Assembly: GCF_000190375.1 (NCBI RefSeq)
Contig: NZ_AEWG01000076.1
Coordinates: 62,001 to 126,000 of the forward strand
Direction: 5' to 3'
DNA: 64,000 nt
Origin: Rubrivivax benzoatilyticus JA2 = ATCC BAA-35
GTDB taxonomy: Bacteria; Pseudomonadota; Gammaproteobacteria; Burkholderiales; Burkholderiaceae_C
A program made the translations under genes and the position numbers. Positions within the stretch are counted from its first letter, which is position 1. Every line of letters starts with the position of its first letter. Shown here piece by piece: positions 6,284-7,155 of the stretch. A model generated the notes under the pieces. That model did no database searches. It had not been told where the DNA came from and was given only the letters and a program-made list of their open reading frames with translations.

Positions 6284-6384
6284 TCAAGGGCTCCATTCAC
6301 CAGTTCCTGTCCGCGATCAGTGGACAAACCGAATGTCGTGGCACTCTGCCGCGGCTGCCCACCGTGCGCGGGTCTTGTGCGCAC

Positions 6385-6400
6385 GCGGCCATCTGGCCGC
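6385..6400 (+). promoter_or_regulatory. Hairpin in the leader just upstream of pufB
   Basis: A perfect 7 bp stem (GCGGCCA / TGGCCGC) with a 2-base spacer, ending 5 bp before the pufB ribosome site AAGGAG (6406-6411). It is followed by neither a T tract nor a gene end, so it is more likely an mRNA 5' stabiliser or processing signal than a terminator. The rest of the 6284-6418 gap shows no convincing sigma-70 promoter to me. Confidence 0.4.
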
Positions 6401-6418
6401 TTATGAAGGAGTTTCCTC

Positions 6419-6565
6419 ATGGCTGAAAGAAAGGGCTCGATCTCCGGGCTTACCGACGACGAGGCCCAGGAGTTCCACAAGTTCTGGGTTCAGGGTTTCG
6501 TGGGTTTCACGGCGGTCGCCGTGGTCGCTCACTTCCTGGTCTGGGTCTGGCGTCCCTGGCTCTAA
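6419..6565 (+). CDS. pufB: LH1 (B870) antenna beta subunit PufB
   Basis: Small single-helix inner-membrane protein that binds bacteriochlorophyll a and carotenoid in the light-harvesting 1 ring around the reaction centre. It has 48 residues. The N-terminus is acidic and cytoplasmic, with TDDEAQEFH, then a transmembrane helix. His38 is the bacteriochlorophyll Mg ligand and His20 is the conserved N-side histidine. The C-terminal WVWRPWL is the typical LH beta end. A strong AAGGAG lies 7 bp before the ATG. The gene is too short for most gene callers. Confidence 0.97.
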
Positions 6566-6600
6566 GTACCTGATAGCTTGACCCGTCATTGGGGAGCGTT

Positions 6601-6825
6601 ATGGCCCATCTTGAATCTGCAATGCCGAAGCCGGTCGCGGCGGGTGACTCCAGAAGTTTCTGGATCATCTTCGCGCTCAGCTACGTGGCGTTTCTGATCA
6701 TTGCCCTCATCGGGCAATTGCTTGGTTGGCACTGGCGTTCCTGGTTGCCGGGTGCTGAAGGTGTGAAATCTATTTTTGGCGGCGTCAAGGCAGCGGTTTA
6801 TACCTTCATGTCGCATTTGCTATAG
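6601..6825 (+). CDS. Small membrane protein between pufB and pufA, LH1-beta-like but without its histidines
   Basis: I do not recognise this 74-residue protein as a named puf product. It starts at ATG 6601 behind GGGGAG (6591-6596), 35 bp after pufB, and its TAG is overlapped by the pufA ribosome site AGGAG (6824-6828), so it is coupled to pufA. It has one predicted transmembrane helix (about 20-42). Aligned without gaps, PufB 19-48 and residues 20-49 here share about 10 of 30 positions, including the W-x-W-R-x-W-L end. Both PufB histidines are replaced (His20 by Trp21, His38 by Gln39). A 25-residue tail follows with a predicted amphipathic stretch. Size and topology also recall PufQ and PufX, but I see no convincing sequence match to either. 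Third codon positions are visibly more AT-rich than in the bch genes, as in pufA. Confidence 0.75.
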   Translation: MAHLESAMPKPVAAGDSRSFWIIFALSYVAFLIIALIGQLLGWHWRSWLPGAEGVKSIFGGVKAAVYTFMSHLL

Positions 6826-6836
6826 GAGCTTGGATT

Positions 6837-7040
6837 ATGTGGAGAATTTGGCGTCTGTTCGATCCGATGCGCGCCATGGTGGCCCAGGCGGTGTTCCTTC
6901 TCGGTCTCGCCGTTCTGATTCACCTGATGCTGCTGGGCACGAACAAGTACAACTGGATGGACGGCGCGAAGAAGGCGCCGGCGGCGACGGCTGTTGCCCC
7001 GGTTCCTGCCGAAGTGACGTCCCTGGCGCAGGCGAAGTAA
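6837..7040 (+). CDS. pufA: LH1 (B870) antenna alpha subunit PufA
   Basis: Single-helix inner-membrane antenna polypeptide that pairs with PufB to form the LH1 ring. It has 67 residues and begins MWRIWRLFDP, the typical LH1 alpha N-terminus. The transmembrane segment is about 13-36, with the bacteriochlorophyll-ligating histidine in LAVLIHLMLL (His29). A soluble Ala/Pro-rich C-terminus follows (KKAPAATAVAPVPAEV). The ribosome site AGGAG lies at 6824-6828. Confidence 0.97.
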   Translation: MWRIWRLFDPMRAMVAQAVFLLGLAVLIHLMLLGTNKYNWMDGAKKAPAATAVAPVPAEVTSLAQAK

Positions 7041-7060
7041 AAAGCGCCACGCCAGTGCAT

Positions 7061-7095
7061 GCGGGCGAGACCGGTCTTGACCGGTTTCGACCCGC
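7061..7095 (+). promoter_or_regulatory. Strong hairpin in the pufA-pufL intercistronic region
   Basis: Arms 7061-7075 and 7080-7095 pair over 15 bp with one bulged A, one G-T pair and a 4-base loop. It sits in the 115 bp gap between the antenna and reaction-centre genes. Known puf operons carry a hairpin here that protects the upstream antenna mRNA from 3'-5' decay, so antenna transcript outlasts reaction-centre transcript. There is no T tract, which fits a decay barrier better than a terminator. Confidence 0.75.
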
Positions 7096-7155
7096 TGCAA
7101 CAACAAACTCGCCGTTCGGGTTGTCGGTGGCGACCCGTCGGTTGGAGGAATCAAT

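Follow-up and report, generated by a model that had tools for sequence, protein, structure and literature searches.

A histidine-less relative of the LH1-beta subunit encoded between pufB and pufA in Rubrivivax and other Burkholderiales

The window analysed here, meaning the whole 64,000-nucleotide stretch of Rubrivivax benzoatilyticus JA2, carries photosynthesis genes on its forward strand in the order bchC-bchX-bchY-bchZ-pufB-ORF2-pufA-pufL-pufM-pufC. Of these, pufB and pufA were assigned by Pfam, and pufL and pufM by PF00124; the remaining named genes are, judging by their translations, what we take to be bchC, bchX, bchY, bchZ and pufC. The features of the segment around ORF2 are as follows.

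6284 to 6418, + strand: gap between bchZ and pufB, 135 nt, too short for PufQ or an upstream-type partner
6419 to 6565, + strand: pufB, encoding a short (tailless) LH1-beta with both histidines present (Pfam LHC)
6591 to 6596, + strand: ORF2 ribosome site GGGGAG, computed Shine-Dalgarno (SD) pairing -8.3 kcal/mol
6601 to 6825, + strand: ORF2/ORF74, histidine-less LH1-beta paralogue of 74 aa (ATG, 74 codons, TAG)
6649 to 6723, + strand: predicted transmembrane helix of ORF2, residues 17-41 (AlphaFold2 model)
6715 to 6717, + strand: Gln39 of ORF2, at the column of the bacteriochlorophyll-ligand histidine (alignment columns)
6733 to 6750, + strand: W-R-S-W-L-P of ORF2, the end common to LH1-beta, presumably on the periplasmic side as in beta
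6772 to 6819, + strand: predicted amphipathic tail helix of ORF2, residues 58-73, with 4 of the 8 invariant residues
6824 to 6828, + strand: pufA ribosome site AGGAG, overlapping the ORF2 stop
6837 to 7040, + strand: pufA, encoding LH1-alpha (Pfam LHC)
7056 to 7099, + strand: strong RNA hairpin in the pufA-pufL gap (z-score -4.4 when 7030-7150 is folded)

These coordinates bear out the sequence-only reading in its description of a 74-codon ORF that has its own ribosome site and a stop overlapped by the site of pufA. SD pairing with the 16S tail is equal for ORF2 and pufB in the window, at -8.3 kcal/mol each, and the family medians are -6.4 kcal/mol for ORF2, -8.3 for pufB and -7.3 for pufA. 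Together with pufB and pufA, ORF2 lies upstream of the 7056-7099 hairpin, and hairpins of this kind have a known protective effect on the pufBA portion of puf messages. By Pfam LHC, the antenna genes of the genome amount to one puf pair and one puc pair. The window's PufA has no close counterpart in the PDB, its best match being 6z5s from Rps. palustris (E 4.9e-18), so the PDB seems to contain no Rubrivivax complex. A perfect 7-base inverted repeat, ATTGCCC/GGGCAAT with a 5-base loop, occupies positions 6700-6718 within ORF2.

The same reading took the place between pufB and pufA to hold no gene in any known puf layout, which is contradicted by print. The Rvi. gelatinosus puf operon has two ORFs of unknown function, with ORF2 upstream of pufA (excerpt of PMC12817894, citing Nagashima 1994), and Roseateles depolymerans has ORF74, which its locus number places between pufB and pufA (excerpt of PMC10037100). 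The latter is co-transcribed with pufB and pufA in the major 1-kb puf transcript, and ORF74, pufB and pufA are the loci with the greatest changes (both in the excerpt of PMC10037100, the former citing Suyama 2002). The window's ORF shares with these two genes its place and a length of about 74 codons, and is equated with them here by place and organism. In the excerpt of PMC12817894, ORF2 was compared with alpha chains alone, at 10.1-14.5% identity to PufA2, with the conclusion that pufA2 of Gemmatimonas was not derived from it. No statement that ORF2 or ORF74 is a relative of beta was found in searches of open-licence PMC papers, including the excerpts of PMC12817894 and PMC10037100. Hence the gene is already known as ORF2/ORF74, and its kinship with beta, its loss of the ligand, its ancestral tail and the lack of room upstream of pufB are what is new here.

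ORF2 is a real gene, maintained under purifying selection between pufB and pufA in relatives. A scan of contigs returned 103 relatives, of which the best 80 came mostly from Rubrivivax, Piscinibacter, Limnohabitans and other Burkholderiales; these 80 and further loci, all picked by their similarity to ORF2, make up a set of 111 loci encoding 78 distinct ORF2 proteins. Conservation in related Burkholderiales, which the sequence-only reading had proposed checking, was found in this set, with PufB before and PufA after ORF2 in 105/111 loci when called automatically, at distances of 18-54 nt from pufB (105 loci) and 9-26 nt from pufA (111 loci). Median pairwise dN/dS, taken from 1607 non-independent pairs of 104 loci, was 0.31 for ORF2, 0.24 for PufA and 0.14 for PufB. 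At the protein level, ORF2 shares 95-96% identity with its counterparts in the records of Rvi. gelatinosus DSM 1709 and IM 151. Within the genus, matches at E 1 were found in 63/81 genomes, a count that includes PufB cross-matches and chance; 39/81 had a match at E <=1e-9, as counted by eye. The PufB of Piscinibacter aquaticus (L008, 4811-4960) has an end unlike that of its relatives (...HVLVWAPAPLALN) that looks like a frame change, perhaps through sequencing error.

Standard family models gave little on the origin of this protein. Searched singly against Pfam and NCBIfam, ORF2 returned just a weak beta match, to NCBIfam pufB (NF040862; E 0.01, with 15.8 bits lying below the curated cut-off of 61), and one chance match. 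At E 1, the same model was matched by 26/47 members of the family, and PF00556 by 1/47 (E 0.19). Because the Pfam and NCBIfam matches were weak, we built our own profiles, the ORF2 family profile, A1, being made from 47 representatives. An ungapped comparison of ORF2 19-49 with PufB 18-48 has 10/31 identities, counted by eye, much as the sequence-only reading had it (about 10 of 30), and this likeness goes beyond chance: ORF2 alone matched a solved LH1-beta chain in phmmer at E 1.9e-10, 25 of the 27 PDB matches listed at E 10 being light-harvesting chains, and A1 matched 8z81_B at E 6e-16, in an alignment that extends into the tail (WIPGAEGYGSVIEGV). In hhalign comparisons, ORF2 aligned over nearly its full length with long-tailed PufB (E 4.2e-22), and with short PufB at E 4.7e-8; column shuffles reached the real score in 0/60 cases for each of these, compared with 51/60 for alpha. 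Judged by these profiles, ORF2 is a true LH1-beta paralogue, unrelated to alpha. An alpha origin was rejected, with an hhalign probability of 0.9% and 51/60 shuffles as good, in line with the conclusion on pufA2 in the excerpt of PMC12817894. A Foldseek search with the ORF2 model returned one meaningless match.

A1 scores the long PufBs of the order Burkholderiales at 4e-22 to 8e-25, far better than those of other groups (4e-10 to 5e-16), which fits ORF2 having arisen as a tandem copy of a long PufB in this order or close to it. A combined tree (74 rows over 74 columns, a small number for that many rows, with 24 of the 47 ORF2 representatives used) places ORF2 in one group (SH-aLRT 97), and the upstream ORFs that we label UQ, the histidine-less ORFs between bchZ and pufB, in another (98). 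Candidates for the sister of ORF2 in this tree are UQ (85, not starred), the order's long PufB (p 0.82) and short PufB (p 0.43).

The residue that binds pigment in PufB is missing throughout. In alignment columns, the ligand histidine is present in 197/197 PufBs (164/164 and 33/33 in two PufB profiles, with genomes or loci reached twice counted twice), compared with 0/158 ORF2 copies. The proposal of a duplicated antenna beta without pigment is thereby supported, as it is by the beta profiles, and on the alignments, loss of the ligand histidine is a trait of the ORF2 family. The accompanying claim that both histidines are gone needs qualifying. In the window, His20 of PufB faces Trp21 of ORF2 and His38 faces Gln39, and the loss of the latter is family-wide; the cytoplasmic-side histidine, however, is present in 6/158 copies, with 18 that could not be aligned there. 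If Gln39 itself ligated bacteriochlorophyll, ORF2 would be a special beta that still carries pigment, and Gln is indeed the commonest residue at this column (32/47 representatives). Yet Ser, Ala, Glu, Thr, Lys, Gly and Arg occur there as well, a variety that argues against Gln as a ligand, and the neighbouring Trp positions are relaxed, with Trp at 43 in 21/47 and at 48 in 38/47. A pigmented ORF2 is therefore very improbable.

Unlike the ligand, the tail has been kept. The sequence-only reading regarded its 25 residues as an addition to the beta plan, but long-tailed LH1-beta carries the same tail, and it now appears inherited. Five genomes of the order encode a single, long PufB with both histidines and an ORF2-type tail (for example ...WRPWLPGSEGYTSMYEGIKAAVYNVVPYAFMG, in L148), and have no ORF between pufB and pufA. 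The long-tailed chains (8z81_B, 9m8m_B and 7xxf_B, and the order's long PufB) align with ORF2 through the helix, the W-R-x-W-[LI]-P and the tail; ORF2 differs in having lost both the histidine ligand and the N-terminal segment conserved in PufB, which these chains retain. Because long-tailed PufBs share it, the tail is probably old, and most likely ancestral to ORF2 and lost from today's short PufB. Conservation in ORF2, as the mean share of the commonest residue, is 0.81 in the tail and 0.83 in W-R-x-W-L-P, compared with 0.61 in the helix and 0.27 at the N-terminus, and Gly51, Ala52, Glu53, Val66, Tyr67, Phe69 and Met70 are invariant in 47/47 representatives. The mean helical moment of the tail is 0.31, against 0.17 for shuffled tails. 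The AlphaFold2 model of ORF2 has a moderate mean pLDDT of 66, with the blocks over residues 21-40 at 77-78. The usual charge count on ORF2 did not settle its orientation.

The distribution of tails and partners was followed in a scan of the order, in which A1 matched 47/399 genomes at 1e-4, and reaction-centre genes were present in 48/399. As long-tailed PufB also matches A1, at E about 1e-20 to 1e-22, the former is not a count of ORF2, and all 47 loci were classified: 39, from nine families, have a short PufB and ORF2 (including G132, whose contig ends before pufA); 5 have a long PufB alone (L147, L148, L155, L157 and L158); and 3, from one genus, pair a short PufB with a histidine-less ORF lying before pufB. 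Hence a histidine-less partner accompanies 42/42 short PufBs but 0/5 long PufBs. Two genomes with reaction-centre genes gave no A1 match: the contig of G227 ends before pufBA, and the same probably applies to G381, given its cut PufL match. One genome, G355, has ORF2 and no reaction-centre match. On a tree of PufL, which 87 of 90 loci possess (L165 being put with the UQ kind by eye), only two independent pairs have branches with support, and in a mean fraction of 0.3 of these the partner changes together with the tail. The association between short tails and partners is thus suggestive, and may reflect descent. Outside the order, long PufB and a histidine-less upstream partner occur together in 10 loci, with L165 an eleventh by eye, and no partner was found for four short PufBs (L167, L168, L174 and L179); donation of the tail is therefore no general rule. 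A divergent type of LH1 (PufA starting MWRYWRIVDPRKAI or MWRYWRVVDPRKAI, and PufB with NPSGLTD) occurs at L150, L151, L156 and L186-L190, with ORF2 in the same place.

The upstream ORFs, UQ, resemble ORF2 in combining a beta-like helix with a tail, and differ from it in standing before pufB, in forming a separate tree group and in the pattern at the end of the tail. They occur both in this order and in puf clusters of Alphaproteobacteria and Gammaproteobacteria, such as those of Methylobacterium and Thiodictyon, and their place, between bchZ and pufB, is that of PufQ in the Rhodobacterales records examined. Further loci with upstream ORFs, mostly histidine-less, are L143, L163, L164, L170, L172, L173, L175-L178, L183, L184 and L192-L194. 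Of 14 mapped UQ copies, one has His at the ligand column; in L163 (709-1023, genome G503), an upstream-type ORF with His there is a possible intermediate. Genome G062, which belongs to the same genus as the window, carries two distinct upstream-ORF/pufB/pufA clusters, each on a contig of its own (L193 and L194). The copy on Thiodictyon pTs485 is annotated as a hypothetical protein:

L209, 2453 to 2677: UQ of Thiodictyon pTs485, WP_100923003.1, with WRPWPP still readable

A PufQ is named for Thiodictyon in the excerpt of PMC5944118; the upstream ORF there, WP_100923003.1, is of the UQ kind.

PufQ is the source of the strongest rival explanation, which overlaps with the reading of ORF2 as a subunit or partner at the rim of the core complex. 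It holds that ORF2 acts in assembly rather than as a lasting subunit, helping to deliver or regulate bacteriochlorophyll, and replaces the upstream PufQ or PufQ-like gene of other purple bacteria. Like ORF2, PufQ belongs to the puf operon and is small, with one helix and a conserved C-terminus, and its deletion leaves 6% of wild-type bacteriochlorophyll (excerpt of PMC5725709, in which an assembly-only role is proposed for it). Distribution is in favour of this rival. Among loci with bchZ and pufB in view, some of them from the same genome, the two genes are at most 207 nt apart in 145 ORF2 loci, compared with 366-558 nt for 18 UQ loci and 343-431 nt for 7 PufQ loci, so the ORF2 loci lack room for a partner upstream of pufB, and no locus was seen with both ORF2 and UQ. 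The Rubrivivax genome, moreover, has no PufQ over the cut-off.

Sequence similarity may also link ORF2 to PufQ, though weakly, and through UQ rather than directly. The UQ profile matched ORF2 at E 9e-15, a value favoured by the UQ set having been partly chosen by similarity to ORF2, and long PufB at 6e-12; one of eight UQ proteins matched NCBIfam pufB at 5e-4. With 12 PufQ and 18 UQ sequences, UQ aligned with PufQ at E 2.3e-6 over 60 columns, and shuffles were as good in 0/60 and 0/150 cases; with the first 7 PufQ sequences this was not significant (E 0.0026, probability 12%). When 18,842 six-frame ORFs from the loci were ranked by a PufQ profile, PufQ itself took ranks 1-12, and 24 of ranks 13-40 went to ORF2 or UQ, none of these with a single E-value better than 0.035 and several being duplicates. 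UQ, being at the place of PufQ and related to both, would therefore bridge the families. However, a direct profile alignment of ORF2 with PufQ is near noise (2/60 shuffles as good), and the Bradyrhizobium/Methylobacterium subset of UQ (7 rows, retrieved with the UQ profile or blast) alone has no link to PufQ and weak links to all families. Pfam PufQ (PF05398) matched neither ORF2 at E 10 nor eight UQ proteins at E 1, and it was absent from the 16 Pfam families listed at E 1 for the 47 ORF2 members; no relation was detectable between PufQ and beta directly, with 33/60 shuffles as good.

Position and ends further separate the two proteins. PufQ lies between bchZ and pufB, whereas ORF2 follows pufB, and the C-terminal pattern common to the 12 PufQ sequences is absent from ORF2. 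The C-terminus of LH1-beta is periplasmic. That of PufQ, in contrast, is predicted to be cytoplasmic (excerpt of PMC5725709). Several phototrophs carry neither of the two genes. PufQ-like function had been named in the sequence-only reading as the main alternative, and this still stands, with the distribution and the bridging UQ family in its favour, and the missing Pfam match and weak direct profile against it; a PufQ-type role for ORF2 is, on this evidence, a serious but rather doubtful candidate. The broader idea, that ORF2, the UQ-type ORFs of many purple bacteria and PufQ all belong to a single superfamily of assembly proteins derived from LH1-beta by loss of the pigment ligand, is tentative and somewhat less likely than not. 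Were it true, a pigment-free relative of the antenna would belong to the antenna-building machinery of purple bacteria, and what has long been called "cytochrome PufQ" would turn out to be a degenerate beta subunit. The ORF2 and UQ data are a lead, still weak, on the origin of PufQ.

ORF2 could instead open or cap the ring, as the sequence-only reading had suggested, working like PufX or protein-W, with one copy replacing a beta and keeping the ring from closing as a gate for quinones. By reasoning alone, a pigment-free beta-like helix could end an array, and the role is free in this genome, in which the PufX profile (PF11511) had 0 matches at E 1. PufX, protein-U and the gamma-like polypeptides are, like ORF2, extra membrane peptides of some RC-LH1 complexes. 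No sequence relation of ORF2 to any of these was detected, however, and none of the 27 PDB matches listed for it was a chain named PufX, protein-U or protein-W. The position differs too, as pufX follows pufM, and gamma-like peptides are oriented oppositely to beta (both in the excerpt of PMC9640540). A gate of this kind is thus improbable, and identity with PufX itself was rejected on the whole-genome profile search.

The reading we prefer, with about even confidence, is that ORF2 is a pigment-free beta that serves the core complex along its periplasmic rim, as a subunit or as an assembly partner. An ancestral long-tailed PufB would have been duplicated in tandem. One copy would have become today's PufB, keeping the bacteriochlorophyll histidine and losing the tail, the order of these events being conjectural; the other would have become ORF2, keeping the helix, W-R-x-W-L-P and amphipathic tail, and losing the ligand and the N-terminal segment. 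ORF2 would share one transcript with PufB and PufA, as reported for Roseateles and presumably so here, and would be oriented as beta is, with its N-terminus inside. It would then pack through its conserved periplasmic half on the rim of RC-LH1, and may do the job of the long-tailed beta's tail in shaping or building the ring. An unnamed gene of a well-studied photosynthesis operon is thus assigned to a family, with a probable origin and a role that experiments can test, and the pigment-holding and tail functions of long-tailed beta appear to be separable onto two proteins. As Limnohabitans and other freshwater phototrophs carry ORF2, the result is relevant to the construction of their core complexes. 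Separately, a Skermanella genome paper names pufE, a light-harvesting component beside pufBA (excerpt of PMC11767975).
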